Assembly: GCF_902459685.1 (NCBI RefSeq)
Contig: NZ_CABPSF010000004.1
Coordinates: forward strand, 372,001-436,000
Reading direction: 5' to 3'
DNA: 64,000 nucleotides
Source: Pandoraea iniqua
GTDB taxonomy: Bacteria > Pseudomonadota > Gammaproteobacteria > Burkholderiales > Burkholderiaceae
The notes under the pieces were generated by a model. It made no database searches. It was not told where the DNA came from and was given only the letters and a program-made list of their open reading frames with translations. This document shows, piece by piece, positions 5,841-19,499 of the stretch. How positions within the stretch are numbered: position 1 is the first letter of the stretch; each line of letters begins with the position of its first letter. Both the position numbers and the translations under genes were made by a program.

Positions 5841-6530
5841 TTACACCAATGTGGCGGTCAAACTGGCGACGAGCGTGTTCGACAACACGACCGGCAGGTT
5901 CGATGCCGTCTGCGCGATGTCGCGATGGCGTTCGACGAAGCCCATGCAGTCGAGCACGAGCATTTCGGCACCTTGCTCGCGCAGGGTGCGTGCGGCACTG
6001 GCTAGCGCTTTATCGCCCTCGGCACCCGTGGCATAGGGCGACGCGGCGGCGCAGATTGGCGGACGTTGCAGTGCTCCCCACTTGTGAAACTCGCTCTCGA
6101 TCTGTCCGGCAAGCGGCACTACGATGCCGACCTGACGCTCACCGGCGAGCGCTGCGGCGGCTGGTGGCACGATGCGGTCCGGCTCGACCAGCCACGCATG
6201 ACGGCAAGCAAGACCTTCGAATTCCCCCGTGCACAAGATCAGAACCACCGTGCAGCCCAGCGCCTCAAGCGCGTCGAGTTTCGCCTGCAATGCACGCTGA
6301 ATCGCGGGCTTGTCGAGTTCCACCGAATCGCCGCTGAGCAGGCGCGAAATCAAGACACCGTTGCCGGCCTGCGGTGCAAAAGCGGCGTCGATGGCGTCAC
6401 GGTCCAGCCCGTCGAGCACGCCCATGTGGACTACCGGCACATCGGCCGGCAGATGCGCGTCGAGAATCGGCGTGATGTCGGCGCGTGGGGCTTGGCCGAT
6501 GGTCAGTGTCCCCAGTTTGTGCTGGCGCAT
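5841..6530 (-). CDS. AroM family protein
   Basis: 229 residues, matching the AroM family in length and in its opening (MRQHKLGTLTIGQAPRADI). Other visible blocks are VLILCTGEFEGL, VGIVVPLAGQ and MLVLDCMGFVERHR near the end. AroM was named for its place next to aroL in enterobacteria and has no established biochemical role; its two-half architecture and Cys residues recall Asp/Glu racemase-like folds (inference). The frame is open upstream, but ATG 6530 is chosen because it gives the family N-terminus and lies just after the DUF1177 stop (10 nt gap). Last gene of the OPT-DUF1177-AroM operon. Confidence 0.85.
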   Translation of the reverse strand: MRQHKLGTLTIGQAPRADITPILDAHLPADVPVVHMGVLDGLDRDAIDAAFAPQAGNGVLISRLLSGDSVELDKPAIQRALQAKLDALEALGCTVVLILCTGEFEGLACRHAWLVEPDRIVPPAAAALAGERQVGIVVPLAGQIESEFHKWGALQRPPICAAASPYATGAEGDKALASAARTLREQGAEMLVLDCMGFVERHRDIAQTASNLPVVLSNTLVASLTATLV

Positions 6531-6540
6531 GGGCAATGCC

Positions 6541-7482
6541 TCAGTGAGGTTGGCGTTTGGAGAGGTGAGCGAGCGAGCCGTACAGCGCGAGCAAGCGGGC
6601 GTAGTCCTCGGTGTCGTAAAACTGGCAAGTCCCCCGGCCGAACTCTTTGGCGACTTCCACAGCAAACTTCACAGCCAGTGCGATATCGGCCTCGTGGCTG
6701 GCCCCCGTGCCGCAGCCGGGGACGATGCTCTGCGTGGTGATCGCCACGCCGACCACTGGCGCACGTGTGGCGATCGACGGCTGCATGATGCTGTTCAGGT
6801 GATAGACGCCGTTACCGTAAGGCGTGATGTCCTGCGTGGTCACCGGGAACGTGACGGCGGGCTGCCCGCTCGTCATTTCCATGATCCGCAGCAGGTCTTC
6901 CGAGACGCGCAGGATGTAGCCCTCCTTGACGGTCGGCGAGATCGCATAGCCCTTGTGATTGATGATGCGGTTGCCCTTGGTGGTGTCGAGGGAGAGCACG
7001 GCGTCCATCTCGTCCCACACTTCGTGGGCGTTCACATCTTCGGTGTCGATCGGCGAGTCCATAAAGTCGACGGGCTCGTGCGGACGCGTCGGCGCATCGG
7101 GGCAGATATGCGTCGTGATGAAGACGTCTCCGGCAAGGACATCGCCCTGTGTTCGCATATGGGCGAGCTTCAGCGCAGCGGCGACGGCAGCGATGGCGCC
7201 GTCGGCGTCTGACACCAGACCTATCCGTGAAGGGCGGGCACCGATGCCCCCCAGACGGCCGACGATGCCCAGACTCGGGGCCGCACCACCGGCCCGCTTG
7301 CCGACGTCACCGGGAATGCAGATCTTGACGAAATCGGTGGCCCCTTTCTTGCCCTCGATTTTCAGGACCTCGACGGTGACACCGTGCGATGCATAGGGGG
7401 CGAGCAGGTCGACCACGGTCTGGCCCGAGGCATGGGCGCTGTCGAAGGCTTCGAAGACTTGGAGAGTTTGGCTAAAGCTCAT
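6541..7482 (-). CDS. DUF1177 family protein
   Basis: 313 residues of a soluble protein that I recognise as the DUF1177 family (MSFSQTLQVFEAFDSAHASG; GATDFVKICIPG; HICPDAPTRPHEPVDFMDSPID; a glycine-rich VPGCGTGASHEADIALAVKF). No catalytic role is established for this family. In this cluster it sits between an OPT-type transporter and AroM, which argues for a shared catabolic or recycling task for the imported substrate. ATG 7482 has no long spacer to the upstream gene (46 nt). Confidence 0.8.
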   Translation of the reverse strand: MSFSQTLQVFEAFDSAHASGQTVVDLLAPYASHGVTVEVLKIEGKKGATDFVKICIPGDVGKRAGGAAPSLGIVGRLGGIGARPSRIGLVSDADGAIAAVAAALKLAHMRTQGDVLAGDVFITTHICPDAPTRPHEPVDFMDSPIDTEDVNAHEVWDEMDAVLSLDTTKGNRIINHKGYAISPTVKEGYILRVSEDLLRIMEMTSGQPAVTFPVTTQDITPYGNGVYHLNSIMQPSIATRAPVVGVAITTQSIVPGCGTGASHEADIALAVKFAVEVAKEFGRGTCQFYDTEDYARLLALYGSLAHLSKRQPH

Positions 7483-14936: not shown

Positions 14937-14974
14937 AACTCTGGCGGAGGCGGTGAGATTCGAACTCACGGAAG
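14937..14974. repeat. attL-like direct repeat: displaced 3' end of tRNA-Ser
   Basis: 38 bp identical to 19405-19442. In that second copy it is the 3' end (T arm, acceptor, CCA) of the intact tRNA-Ser gene. The copy here stops before the variable and anticodon arms, so it cannot be a functional tRNA. A tRNA-end duplication at the two borders of a lower-GC segment is the expected footprint of tyrosine-recombinase integration. Confidence 0.9.
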
Positions 14975-15181: not shown

Positions 15182-15683
15182 ATGTTCGCTAAGCGTGAAT
15201 CTGAACACGCTCGGAAGCCACCGCGCGACGCGCTCGACCTAGCATGTCTGGCCGGGCGGCGTCCATCCGACATTCTTAAGATCCGTGAGCGTGACGTACC
15301 GCACGGCTGCTTTGCAACCCAACAGGGAACACCTAACGCGAAACGTCGAATTCAGGTAATTCGTTGGCTCAAGGCAAAAATTGATCGGATTGCAAGACAA
15401 TCAACAGACCACAATCCATGTGGAAATTCCTGGTGACAAACGAGCCTGACCGACGAGTCGGCCTTAAGTAAATTCAAACGATGTTTAGGAGTCCAGTCTG
15501 GCCGCGTGATTGCCAAAGCCACAAAAGTACAAATGCCGAGACTTGCTGGGAAAAGCGGGAGCGGACAAATCTGACGATGTCGGCAATACGTATGCAGAAT
15601 AGAAGCAAATCGGTTACGAAGCTATTGTGACCACCGAACGCTATCTGCGGAATTGCCTGCGAGATAAGATTAGGATAATGTGA
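15182..15683 (+). pseudogene. Decayed tyrosine-recombinase (phage/island integrase), C-terminal part
   Basis: Remnant of an integrase catalytic domain, split by frameshifts and a stop. Frame 1 (15182-15436) reads ALDLACLAGRRPSDILKIRERDV, the block holding the first catalytic Arg of island integrases. After at least one frame change, a later frame reads RDLLGKAGADKS (the degraded second box), an in-frame TAG at 15600-15602, then KQIGYEAIVTTERYLRN, which contains the nucleophile-type Tyr, and ends at the TGA at 15683. The N-terminal DNA-binding parts are absent. It lies just inside the attL-like repeat, as expected for the recombinase that inserted the island. Confidence 0.75.
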
Positions 15684-16057: not shown

Positions 16058-16306
16058 ATGACAATGAAATGGTGTGGGATGACAACTGTTCCGTTTTTGG
16101 TGAAATTTGCGAAGCCTTGTATGTCGCCTGGTCGGGCGACTGCCGATTCAGCATATGTGTACGATGAAGCCGAAGACATGGTTCGATGGACTGGCGACGT
16201 CAATGCCCCATTTGCAATCGACCAAGCTGGTACGAACGGCCCCATGACAAAGAAAGCCGACATCGAAAAGGGCGAAGACGCCAAGGACAGGCGGATGTGG
16301 CGCTAG
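16058..16306 (+). CDS. Putative ATP-grasp-modified RiPP (graspetide) precursor peptide
   Basis: 82 residues from ATG 16058; in-frame ATGs at 16064 and 16079 are equally possible, and 16079 (MTTVPFLVKFAKP) looks most like known leaders of ATP-grasp-modified peptides, but no start has a strong ribosome site. Layout seen: PFLVKFAKP near the N-terminus, a middle YVYDEAEDMVRW, then a Gly/Asn hinge and a charged C-terminal stretch MTKKADIEKGEDAKDRRMWR. That tail has hydroxyl/amine donors (Thr, Lys) next to ordered acids (Asp, Glu), the raw material for side-chain ester or amide rings. It ends 9 nt before the ligase gene. Identification rests on this layout and on the neighbour; ring pattern and function are unknown. 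Confidence 0.7.
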   Translation: MTMKWCGMTTVPFLVKFAKPCMSPGRATADSAYVYDEAEDMVRWTGDVNAPFAIDQAGTNGPMTKKADIEKGEDAKDRRMWR

Positions 16307-16315
16307 GCGAATCCG

Positions 16316-17287
16316 ATGATCGTTATTCTCTCAAATAAGTGGGACATCACAGTCGATTTCGTCGTTCGCGAACTTAAGGCGCGTCATGCCGAGTTCATAC
16401 GCATAAACACGGAAGAACTCCTCAGAGATGGTGTGACGGTCCGGATGCCGGGGCCGAGACTCGTAGTCGGTAAAGGAGCGAAAACCGTCGATTTATCGAG
16501 CCGTGTGACGGCAATTTGGTGTCGGCGCCCGGGAAAACCTTATGACTTTGTTCCCAAGGAACAGAAACCTTCCGAAGCAATTCAAAAATTTGTTAGCGAC
16601 CAGTGGTATTCATGTCTCGAATCTCTTGAACTCCTGCCAAACGTTCGTTGGGTCAACCCGCCGGCGAGATCCAGTCAAATGGAGAGCAAGTTGCACCAGC
16701 TCCAACTTGCGGCTGAGCTTGGATTTAATGTCCCCAGGACTTTGATCTCAAATATTGGTGATGAGATTCGCGACTTTTGTGAGGCCGAAGGTGGTCGACT
16801 AGTGGTGAAATCACTCTACGCACCGCTTATTGAGGAGCCGGAGCAGGACTTCTTTGTATTTTCCAACGTTATCACTGCGGAAGATTTGCACGACGACAAG
16901 TCCTTGTCGATCGCCCCATGCATTTTTCAACAAGCGATATGGCCGAAGATTGATTACCGAGTTACCGTGATTGGCGACACAGTTTTCACCGTACGGATTG
17001 GTCAGTCCGATGGGGAACACGAAGAAGCCGTGTTGGACTGGAGGACTCGGGAGGCAAACGTTAGTCTCGAGGCGTGCGACCTTCCAGAGTCGATCGAGCA
17101 TCTGTGCAGGGAGTTTGTCTTTCGGGCGGGGCTCACATTTGGAGCCATCGACTTAGTCGAACATGCCGGGCAGTTTTATTTTCTGGAGATCAACCCAAAT
17201 GGTGAGTGGGGGTGGCTCGAGAAGACGGCTAGAGTACCCATCAGCTCTGCGCTCTGTGACACCCTTCTCAATGGCACCAAACAATGA
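16316..17287 (+). CDS. MvdD-like ATP-grasp ribosomal peptide maturase (graspetide ligase)
   Basis: 323 residues of an ATP-grasp ligase like MvdC/MvdD of microviridin synthesis, which forms side-chain ester or amide rings in a precursor peptide using ATP. Seen: N-terminal domain MIVILSNKWDITVDFVVREL with FIRINTEEL, the hallmark WCRRPGKP at 68-75, NPPARSSQMESKLHQLQLAAELGFNVPRT (in two parts) at 114-141, the ATP lysine block RLVVKSL at 161-167, IDYRVTVIGDTVFTVRI at 212-228, and the metal-binding end FGAIDLV...FYFLEINPNGEWGWLE at 275-302. Length is typical. Its TGA overlaps the next ATG (ATGA), so the membrane protein is translationally coupled. Confidence 0.92.
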   Translation: MIVILSNKWDITVDFVVRELKARHAEFIRINTEELLRDGVTVRMPGPRLVVGKGAKTVDLSSRVTAIWCRRPGKPYDFVPKEQKPSEAIQKFVSDQWYSCLESLELLPNVRWVNPPARSSQMESKLHQLQLAAELGFNVPRTLISNIGDEIRDFCEAEGGRLVVKSLYAPLIEEPEQDFFVFSNVITAEDLHDDKSLSIAPCIFQQAIWPKIDYRVTVIGDTVFTVRIGQSDGEHEEAVLDWRTREANVSLEACDLPESIEHLCREFVFRAGLTFGAIDLVEHAGQFYFLEINPNGEWGWLEKTARVPISSALCDTLLNGTKQ

Positions 17288-18261
17288 GCTTGCGAGATTT
17301 TCTCAAGTGCGTGTGGGAGGTCCTATACCCTCCTTATGAGCTTAGCCGTTACGGGCCGGACAGAAGGGCGACGACCGGGGAGCCTGCCGTGACACCAATT
17401 CGGGGAAAGAGGTCGACAGAGCAAGATATGCTGCAATGCTATCTTTCAGCGTCGGAAGCTATTTACAAAAGTGAGATCGATCGTAAGAAAAACCTTGAAG
17501 ACAAGGCGGGAACATATCTTGCCGGTCTGGGAATTTCGTCAAGCATTCTCGTGTCACTTCCAGCATTTTTGATAGAAAAATTCGGCGGCTCACTGTATCA
17601 AAAATTGATGGTGCTGATAATTTTCGCGATCGCGTTGGGATACTTGGTTCTCTCAGCGATTTATGCAGTAAAAGTCCGTACAAACGCAGCTCACTATGTG
17701 ATTAATTCGAAGAGTTTAGAGAGCTTCGGATTTTTGGGCTCGAATTTCCGCCGCAGATGGGCTGCGCATCTTATCGAACTTGCGCGGCTGAACGAACCCT
17801 CACTCACCCTCAAGGCAAATTGGTTGTACTTGGCTGAGAAGATGTTCTTGAGGGGGGTGATTATTTCGAGCTGCGGCGGAATCTTACTTTGGGTCTTTGC
17901 GATTTCACTCCCGAAGACCCCGGAATCTCATCGCGATCTAAAGGCGGCCGTTAATTCAGCGAACGGAATAAATGGCGTCAGCTTGAACTCCAACCTTGTG
18001 AGTTGCACCGAAATCACTTCAAATCTGGGGATGAAACTTCGGTCAGACGATAAGGTTGTTGATGACCTGAAGGCAGAATTGGCATCTAGCCTAAAAGCCG
18101 AATCAGAGCTTCGAGAAAAACTCGATGCGAAGTTGAATACTCCTCAGTCGCGGTCCTCAAGGTCATCGCTTCGAACGCCACCAAAGCATATTCGGCATGA
18201 TTGTGGTCCCGGACCTGAATCTACTTCCTCTGCCGTGACCGCTGGGGGGGACTCATCCTAA
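17284..18261 (+). CDS. Three-TM membrane protein coupled to the graspetide ligase; function unknown
   Basis: 325 residues, not recognised as a named family. Hydrophobic segments at about 77-97, 108-130 and 190-209. Ahead of TM1 is an amphipathic stretch with KKNLEDKAGTYLAG, similar in style to small membrane effector modules in bacterial conflict systems. After TM3 comes a loop, a predicted coiled coil at about 257-285 (DDLKAELASSLKAESELREKL) and a Ser/Arg/Pro-rich tail. It begins inside the ligase stop codon (4-nt overlap), so it is part of the same unit. Candidate roles are immunity, export or a membrane effector; sequence alone does not choose among them. Confidence 0.75.
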   Translation: MSLRDFLKCVWEVLYPPYELSRYGPDRRATTGEPAVTPIRGKRSTEQDMLQCYLSASEAIYKSEIDRKKNLEDKAGTYLAGLGISSSILVSLPAFLIEKFGGSLYQKLMVLIIFAIALGYLVLSAIYAVKVRTNAAHYVINSKSLESFGFLGSNFRRRWAAHLIELARLNEPSLTLKANWLYLAEKMFLRGVIISSCGGILLWVFAISLPKTPESHRDLKAAVNSANGINGVSLNSNLVSCTEITSNLGMKLRSDDKVVDDLKAELASSLKAESELREKLDAKLNTPQSRSSRSSLRTPPKHIRHDCGPGPESTSSAVTAGGDSS

Positions 18262-18604: not shown

Positions 18605-19210
18605 ATGCCTCCACATATCGCGATTATTCACGTAAACACGGTGCCGAGTGGCAGCTTCGAGGAATTCCGCACAGCAACGGCGTGGCCGGAAGTGGAAGTT
18701 CAAGTCCATGCAGTGGCCCCACCTGGCCCGATGGCTGGTATTGAGTGGCTTATGCCCACTCTTGTGATCGGCTTTGTTGCTTCTGCTTACTTTGGTGGTT
18801 TTTTTCAGGAAATGGGAAAGGACCACTACTTGTTGGTGAAGGAGCAATTCAAGAAGTTGTACCAGAAAGTTGCAGGTTCACATGCTCCCGATGTCAAGTT
18901 GATGAGTACTCAGGGCAAGGTGAAAGAGGTTCAGTCGTACTCGCTTTACTTTTCTCTGGTTGGCGAGACACCAAGTGGGATTAGGTTGAAGTTGCTCATA
19001 AAGAAGCCGATTACGATGGCAGAGTACGAACGTTGTGTGGATTGCTTCCTTGATCTGCTGAGAGACGTCAATCTGGGGACAATGGGCGAAGCTATGCGCA
19101 ATAGACTCGAATCCACAATTCCGCTGGGGCGCATGATTGTAGTCACCTACGACGAAAAGCTGGATCAGGTAGTCCCCATAGATGTCCTGACGGGGGAGAT
19201 GAAGAGATAA
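18605..19210 (+). CDS. Hypothetical single-pass membrane protein
   Basis: 201 residues, not recognised. A short N-terminal part, one strong hydrophobic segment at about 48-66 (EWLMPTLVIGFVASAYFGGFF), then a soluble domain of about 130 residues with mixed charged helices and strands (EVQSYSLYFSLVGETPSGIRLKLLIKKPITMAEYERCVDCF) and a C-terminal strand-rich end (RMIVVTYDEKLDQVVPIDVL). Codon use is island-like. It lies 343 bp beyond the RiPP unit and may be independent of it. Last gene before the tRNA-Ser. Confidence 0.6.
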   Translation: MPPHIAIIHVNTVPSGSFEEFRTATAWPEVEVQVHAVAPPGPMAGIEWLMPTLVIGFVASAYFGGFFQEMGKDHYLLVKEQFKKLYQKVAGSHAPDVKLMSTQGKVKEVQSYSLYFSLVGETPSGIRLKLLIKKPITMAEYERCVDCFLDLLRDVNLGTMGEAMRNRLESTIPLGRMIVVTYDEKLDQVVPIDVLTGEMKR

Positions 19211-19404: not shown

Positions 19405-19442
19405 AACTCTGGCGGAGGCGGTGAGATTCGAACTCACGGAAG
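19405..19442. repeat. attR-like direct repeat within tRNA-Ser
   Basis: Second copy of the 38-bp repeat found at 14937-14974. It includes the encoded CCA end, acceptor 3' strand and T arm of tRNA-Ser plus five bases downstream, so the gene was left intact on this side. Confidence 0.9.
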
Positions 19443-19499
19443 GGTTACCCCTTCGCTGGTTTTCAAGACCAGTCCATTAAACCACTCTGGCACGCCTCC
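19410..19499 (-). tRNA. tRNA-Ser (anticodon UGA)
   Basis: On the minus strand the acceptor GGAGGCG (19499-19493) pairs with CGCCTCC (19420-19414), followed by discriminator G and an encoded CCA. The anticodon stem CTGGT/ACCAG encloses the loop CTTGAAA, giving UGA. A long variable arm (class II, as in serine tRNAs) and a T loop TTCGAAT are visible. 90 nt with CCA. Integration site of the adjacent island. Confidence 0.95.

Follow-up and report, generated by a model that had tools for sequence, protein, structure and literature searches.

A mobile graspetide-type gene trio with a conserved membrane partner in Pandoraea iniqua, a possible intracellular conflict cassette

Graspetides are known as protease inhibitors and have been mined as natural products. 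What, then, might a graspetide-type peptide do when its genes form a minimal, mobile unit with an unannotated membrane protein? The question is raised by a locus in Pandoraea iniqua, in a stretch of 64,000 nucleotides analyzed here as a whole (the window; assembly GCF_902459685.1, contig NZ_CABPSF010000004.1, positions 372,001 to 436,000). Three tightly packed open reading frames (ORFs) lie on the + strand within positions 16058-18261: 16058-16306 (82 amino acids, aa), 16316-17287 (323 aa) and 17284-18261 (325 aa), with a 9-nt gap between the first two and a 4-nt overlap between the last two. The initial annotation had placed all three correctly and read them as a locus for a ribosomally synthesized and post-translationally modified peptide (RiPP), without the defence neighbours, exact element, spread across phyla and shared membrane family described below. 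This reading is supported, and 16058-18261 is almost certainly a graspetide-type locus. The function proposed here, held tentatively and a little short of even confidence, is that of a mobile three-gene conflict cassette whose cyclized peptide would work inside the cell together with the membrane protein.

The second gene (16316-17287, + strand) encodes an ATP-grasp enzyme whose E-values against NCBIfam are 5.8e-65 for TIGR04187, 1.8e-54 for MvdC, 7.1e-44 for MvdD, 1.3e-18 for grasp-with-spasm and 3.8e-8 for the RimK family. Its best relatives among solved chains are AMdnB (7M4S; 8.2e-39), then 5IG8, which we take to be MdnB, 5IG9 and CdnC (7MGV). A profile of ten close ligases (alignment A3) matches the same four chains at E-values of 1.2e-49 to 1.8e-41, and the FLEINPNGEWGWL block is invariant in the ten aligned sequences. 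5IG9 is the microviridin ligase MdnC (PMC7823629). These family and solved-chain matches and the invariant block place the enzyme in the MvdC/MvdD/TgmB peptide-maturase ATP-grasp superfamily and mark it, by homology, as a graspetide-type macrocyclase. The MvdD-like identity given in the initial annotation therefore stands, although no NCBIfam match reaches its curated cut-off; the 219.5 bits scored against TIGR04187 (GRASP_SAV_5884) fall below the 350 required for that subfamily, and the enzyme belongs to a branch missed by every curated NCBIfam model at its cut-off. ATP-grasp enzymes that add an amino acid or join a peptide to another molecule without cyclizing it, in the manner of RimK or PGM1, do exist (PMC8939145). 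Such an activity is scarcely credible here, since the E-values to TIGR04187, MvdC and MvdD lie more than 35 orders of magnitude below that to RimK and the putative substrate carries conserved Thr/Lys before Asp/Glu; the grouping with RimK that had been named as grounds for abandoning the original identification was not found, peptide macrocyclases scoring far better.

The locus resembles the TgmB/SAV_5884-type graspetides (TIGR04187), presumably linked to group 13 graspimiditides such as fuscimiditide, in its best family match and its single ligase, but besides falling short of the cut-off it has no methyltransferase in the trio and has a third gene encoding three transmembrane (TM) segments. 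It shares with the microviridin-type systems a Phh leader motif and Lys as a possible amide donor, but has one ligase, another core and no transporter that could be seen.

A genome scan for relatives of the ligase returned 29 related loci. The ten closest (L002-L011; ligase identity 74 to 44%, L002 and L003 being near identical) come from Zoogloea, Oryzomicrobium, Sulfuritalea, a Bacteroidetes metagenome-assembled genome (MAG), two Planctomycetes MAGs, a Deltaproteobacterium, an Acidobacteriaceae bacterium, a Verrucomicrobium and the archaeon Halorubrum persicum. All ten contain a small gene directly upstream of the ligase, although only its second half is readable in frame in L005; a lack of this conservation, which would have spoken against the initial annotation, was thus not observed. 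The trio with the same tail on its peptide occurs in nine distinct loci other than that of the window, from six bacterial groups and one haloarchaeon. Because of this position in ten of ten loci, and because non-synonymous and synonymous divergence (pN and pS) from L002 are 0.13 and 0.69 over the whole ORF, the small ORF is a real gene. It had been taken to have 82 codons from 16058, but its homologues begin shortly before the PFL residues and its start is therefore probably the ATG at 16079, giving a precursor of 75 aa (16079-16306, + strand); no clear ribosome-binding site was seen by eye at either start.

The small protein has the features of a graspetide precursor. Its leader contains PFLVKF, which matches the graspetide leader motif Phhx(1,2)h as defined in PMC8939145, and P5, F6, L7, F10 and further leader residues are identical in the nine precursors with a readable leader. 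The tail MTKKADIEKGEDAKDRRMWR named in the initial annotation is present in the ORF, with the core TKKADIEKGEDAKDRRMWR. Alignment of ten precursors (A1; the window and nine loci) yields the common tail TKKxDxEKGEDxKDRRMW, from which chiefly the archaeal member departs, and T57, K58, K59, E63, K64, D70 and the W are invariant, so that conserved Thr/Lys donors are followed by Asp/Glu acceptors. By homology, the ATP-grasp enzyme would recognize the PFL..F leader, phosphorylate Asp/Glu side chains under its guidance and allow attack by Thr or Lys, joining these side chains of the tail in one or more lactone or lactam rings. A graspetide mechanism of this kind has been described (PMC13097080).

The precursor is under purifying selection. 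In comparisons with L002 and L004, pN is 0.06 and 0.04 in the tail and 0.17 and 0.21 in the leader, whereas pS is 0.59 and 0.78 in the tail and 0.72 and 0.87 in the leader. Non-synonymous differences from L002 number 3 over 51 sites in the tail and 20.5 over 124 in the leader (p 0.09); those from L004 number 2 over 51 and 26 over 125 (p 0.005). Averaged over pairs of nine complete precursors, identity reaches 0.71 for the tail (residues 55-75) and 0.49 for residues 1-54. The tail is thus at least as conserved as the leader, unlike the usual graspetide pattern of shared leaders and diverse cores stressed in PMC8939145, and this allows the cautious inference that in every host the core meets a single, fixed partner.

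The third gene (17284-18261, + strand) encodes a protein of 325 aa with hydropathy peaks at residues 79-97, 108-126 and 191-209 and without a fitting family in Pfam, NCBIfam or PADLOC; 11 members of its family gave weak or fusion-type matches only. Homologues occupy the same position in L002-L011, in the broken L013 and probably in L012. In L013 (254-1626) a transposase-like ORF, recognized by eye, replaces the first two thirds of the ligase while the membrane gene is whole. Comparison with hhalign of the 11 close members (A2) and seven membrane genes of distant cassettes (A5) gave a probability of 99.1 over 175 columns. As a control, A2 was compared with single proteins from all loci then available, namely the 41 ORFs that measure 150-420 aa and contain two to four TM segments, a filter that removed L040. 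Among the 41 are 11 close members, including the window copy (L001) and members of A2, which score high by construction. Distant cassette members from L056, L058, L039, L057, L042 and L041 scored 94 to 62, and weaker values were obtained for L032 (42), L059 (33), L012 (28) and L046 (23), the last a ligase locus without a recognized precursor. The 20 other TM ORFs remained at or below 19.4, including SLATT_5 (18.3) and SLATT_1 (14.6) proteins. By sequence comparison, the third genes of the cassettes are one family.

The members of this family share a common architecture. In each of the 25 cassettes compared, the protein has its three hydrophobic segments in corresponding positions (L040 carries three additional ones). 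The second loop is short; the third spans about 50-68 residues, and in 23 of the 25, all but L011 and L012, Lys/Arg outnumber Asp/Glu in it. This excess of basic residues suggests an N-in, C-out topology. A PASTA domain match in one of 11 members (E 3.3e-8, apparently in L005) fits a C-terminus on the outside. AlphaFold2 modelled the window protein with a predicted local distance difference test (pLDDT) of 74 and a predicted template-modelling score (pTM) of 0.54, and the compact L008 homologue with 89 and 0.81; in the latter, long helices are predicted at residues 54-94, 108-137 and 160-216.

Could this protein export the peptide? PMC8939145 reported in 2022 two uncharacterized membrane clusters, 18 and 40, in graspetide loci and proposed transport for cluster 18, which occurs in thuringinin loci without known transporters. 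The distant cassettes do recall the thuringinin-type multi-core graspetides, since they carry repeats near TKTxxxxESDDD and their ligase gene adjoins one for a membrane protein, but the branch of the window has one KK-type core, and the likeness to cluster 18 is one of description, the two not being known as the same family. With three TM segments, a long helix, variable C-terminal tails and no ATPase part seen, an exporter appears improbable.

Three core types, named in the present analysis, can be distinguished among the cassettes. Type I, that of the window, has the single core described above. Type II (L039, L040, L041, L058, L077, L078, L079, L088) has several repeats near TKTxxxxESDDD, and type III (L012, L059, L080, L081, L083, L084) a single (T/S)KKxDxETGEDQKG; the precursors of L056 and L057 are outside this typing. 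L089 has three tandem small ORFs ending in ETTDNN, ETTDDN or ETTDDE: these differing short precursor-like ORFs (5950-6616) are followed by one ligase and by a membrane partner whose C-terminal tail is long.

The three genes are closely linked throughout. The coupled membrane gene noted in the initial annotation is a conserved third member of all 25 cassettes, with ligase-membrane junctions of -22 to +9 nt. Searches with the membrane protein led to an adjoining ligase in five of five plasmid records and in the one phage record (a Leptospira phage), and every strong match of the family that was followed adjoins such a ligase. A match to the membrane profile is present in 11 of 12 genomes that had been selected because they contain a cassette, and the strong one is always the cassette copy. 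The profile matched one of 369 genomes in the class of the window, its own, and two of 277 in the phylum of L008, namely that of L008 and a new genome (G1781) that again has precursor, ligase and membrane gene. Conversely, no three-TM ORF adjoins the ligase in any of 21 informative loci of other graspetides, from 29 examined, some of which extend little beyond 1 kb past the ligase (L016, L019, L023, L026, L094 and L098 were uninformative for a wrong frame, L036 and L038 for having no ORF).

Trees of ligases and membrane proteins largely agree. The Mantel rho is 0.71 over all 25 cassettes, 0.69 within the ten that share the window's type and 0.85 within the remaining 15, with p 0.0002 in each case (5000 permutations); the positions of L089 and L010 differ between the trees. 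This comparison was made without L056 (ligase not in one open frame), L084 (short membrane ORF), the near duplicates L042 and L003, the broken L013 and L046. Agreeing trees and close coupling would also be expected of a synthetase partner that holds ligase and leader at the membrane, and a partner-dependent synthetase is known from rosaritide (PMC13097080). That partner is, however, a predicted peptidyl-prolyl isomerase (PPIase)-like protein and not a TM protein, and this role would leave the defence neighbours described below unexplained; it is regarded as quite improbable.

The trio of the window lies in an integrative element. Two exact 38-bp copies of the end of a tRNA-Ser gene, at 14937-14974 and 19405-19442, form att-like repeats at its left and right ends, the right copy running into the tRNA-Ser (TGA) gene itself (19410-19499, - strand), the sole tRNA in the window. 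The element measures 4,468 bp between the repeat copies and has a GC content of 0.507, compared with 0.62 on either side. Near its left end an ORF of 84 aa (15182-15436, + strand), identified by eye as a remnant of a tyrosine integrase and without a Pfam match of its own, shares 58% of 72 aligned residues with an integrase-like ORF of 360 aa from another island at this tRNA-Ser site (L073) and is 50-56% identical to three others. Since the integrase is broken, the element is probably immobile by itself now. The tRNA region is matched in all 32 genomes of the genus, including that of the window, and the trio, searched by DNA, in this one only. The earlier description as a tRNA island was thus right and is now exact. 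Between trio and right repeat, an ORF of 201 aa (18605-19210, + strand) shows one TM segment by eye and had no match in family scans beyond one Pfam match at chance level; its membership in the unit is not established.

Other islands occupy the same site in the genus. Among six tRNA-Ser sites from other genomes, five have kilobases of other DNA beside the tRNA, and in four of these five the tRNA end is matched a second time and a relative of the integrase remnant is present; in L074 the 38-bp sequence occurs once. These sites (L071-L076) mark an island hotspot that holds, by eye, a Vsr-like nuclease (L073) and an OLD-like ATPase (L072), as well as ORFs of 1258 aa (L076) and 4224 aa (L071).

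Mobility extends to the other cassettes, which occur on nine plasmids (five typed as conjugative), on IMG/VR viral contigs and in two phage records. Viral contigs searched with the precursor profile gave no relative, nor did plasmids searched with the membrane protein of the window or of L008. The ligase is very sparse in the taxa scanned: one of 242 genomes of the Halobacteria (class of L011) at E<=1e-50, and two of 294 of the Planctomycetes (phylum of L006) and one of 247 of the Acidobacteria (phylum of L009) at E<=1e-70, all already known. In the order of the window, eight of 399 genomes have a match at E<=1e-10, and the sole close one is the genome itself. L002 and L003 (1-8115) are almost identical islands of Zoogloea and Oryzomicrobium with STK_OB, genes of PP2C and vWA type by eye, and the trio. 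They run at about 8115 into a gene that by eye is of ComM/Mg-chelatase type, and the sequence beyond differs between the two, which argues for recent transfer.

Anti-phage genes accompany a part of the cassettes. The neighbours examined were 129 of 170 ORFs of at least 150 aa at the 25 loci (set A6), those dropped by eye being mostly short or doubtful and some lying beyond the L002 island. At E<=1e-10 they matched 194 PADLOC families, compared with nine (mad2, mad3, PDC-M32A, PDC-M72A, Ankyrin and AriA models) for 82 ORFs from ten actinobacterial graspetide loci without the membrane gene; redundant models inflate these counts, the families listed are the first 25 among the 194, and the control is small and from other taxa than the cassettes, all of which lessens the weight of the contrast for a defensive role. 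Assignment to loci relied on ten neighbour proteins scanned singly, a small number, with Pfam and record annotation. Strong anti-phage neighbours were found at a third of the loci (8 of 25): STK_OB at L002 (2.8e-250), LmuB of Lamassu at L008 (6.2e-104), McrBC at L011 (6.4e-10, beside an AAA_5 protein), pAgo at L059 (2.3e-186), PDC-M01A at L079 (5.2e-45), LmuA of Lamassu at L080 (2.3e-268, plus annotated AbiE genes), Dsr1 at L083 (2.6e-15, annotated SIR2) and E1-E2 at L088 (1.2e-39). L084, outside the 25-locus set, also has annotated AbiE genes. The L081 neighbour scanned singly gave nothing, and the match at L077 was not counted because it is a methyltransferase of the phage itself. The only similarities between the neighbours of different loci concern L059 and L083, related islands that share three genes, and substrate-binding-type proteins of L056 and L058.

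The absence of any widely recurring neighbour family, and in particular of a recurring exporter or peptidase/protease among the 129 neighbours, indicates that no exporter or peptidase belongs to the unit. The peptide is therefore probably not exported by dedicated machinery and would be retained in the cytoplasm. The three-TM protein, encoded by the translationally coupled gene and with its N-terminal region and central loop apparently on the cytoplasmic side, would be the partner of peptide and ligase. It would most likely act at the inner membrane, as the effector or as its gate; the conserved core, the coupled partner and the lack of an exporter together suggest that the peptide acts with it in the producer. 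Since the trio resides in phages, plasmids and islands and partly among anti-phage genes, it may protect the host cell or the element against other invaders, for example by damaging the membrane or causing arrest once it is triggered.

Bacteriocins are commonly accompanied by small membrane immunity proteins, and the principal alternative is a bacteriocin that is released to act on neighbouring cells or their proteases while the three-TM protein protects the producer. Lanthipeptide clusters likewise sit near defence genes (PMC12715929), so that the neighbourhood does not prove a defensive function, and all graspetides characterized by 2022 are described as protease inhibitors (PMC8939145); both points favour a bacteriocin and tell against an intracellular conflict role. 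A released peptide would, however, leave the missing exporter and peptidase to be explained, as well as a tail that is well conserved from the window genome to Halorubrum, at least as much as the leader, in a class for which PMC8939145 stresses diverse cores. A bacteriocin with immunity is considered rather unlikely.

Several further observations weigh against an intracellular conflict cassette. The signal for stronger constraint on the core than on the leader is weak, invariant columns (counted without L005, which lacks the leader) being 7 of 21 in the tail and 12 of 54 before it (p 0.38). Seventeen of the 25 loci, several of type I among them, have no assigned defence neighbour, and none of the scanned ORFs in the window element is a defence gene. 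The genome of L012 gave no match to the membrane profile, and another genome (G403) has a second, weak match (E 5.4e-6). The proteins resemble SLATT and Pycsar TM effectors in being long-helix membrane proteins in a mobile and partly defensive context, and two of 11 members have PycTM matches, at E 0.0095 at best, but the trio has no nucleotide-signal gene, no Pfam SLATT model is among the matches at E<=1 for the 11 members and ten further proteins, and the A2 profile gave background scores with one SLATT_1 and one SLATT_5 protein as single sequences. The more specific form of the proposal, a new anti-phage or anti-plasmid system in which a cyclized ribosomal peptide would serve as intracellular ligand (guard, antidote or trigger) of a three-TM effector, as cyclic nucleotides do in CBASS and Pycsar, is doubtful.

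The novelty suggested in the initial annotation holds in part. No description of the trio, of its membrane family across core types, of an archaeal member or of a defence context for graspetides was found in titles and abstract openings, a coverage so incomplete that absence counts for little. Within the same material, nothing linked graspetides to SLATT or defence islands, and work on ATP-grasp anti-phage membrane effectors, MvdD toxin-antitoxin systems and RiPP abortive infection included no such cassette. The claim is narrowed by the membrane clusters 18 and 40, already in print for graspetide loci (PMC8939145). Graspetide groups are numbered up to 43 (PMC13097080), and general background is given in PMC11118758, PMC12291112 and PMC7823629.

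Three other gene arrangements were observed near ATP-grasp ligases. Two unrelated bacteria have a DUF4062 protein in the vicinity of the graspetide ligase, at 7927-9000 of L007 (by Pfam) and at 7029-7912 of L096 (by annotation). On the Pedobacter plasmid pA27BH1 (L093), a graspetide-type ligase is located about 600 bases upstream of annotated lasso-peptide B2 and asparagine-synthase-related proteins, which may form a joint or hybrid RiPP locus. In Ligilactobacillus salivarius (L097), a divergent ATP-grasp ligase gene overlaps one for a SagB/ThcOx dehydrogenase, both on a mobilizable plasmid of small size.

A minimal, mobile trio, found across phyla with its core well conserved and a membrane protein dedicated to it, points to a biological role unlike that of the known graspetides. 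In a system of about 2.2 kb, ring chemistry, membrane action and phage resistance are testable together, and the proposed function would supply the first hypothesis for a family of unannotated membrane proteins. Recurring in distant bacteria and one archaeon, in some cases beside anti-phage genes, the trio may represent a novel form of cellular defence or weaponry.

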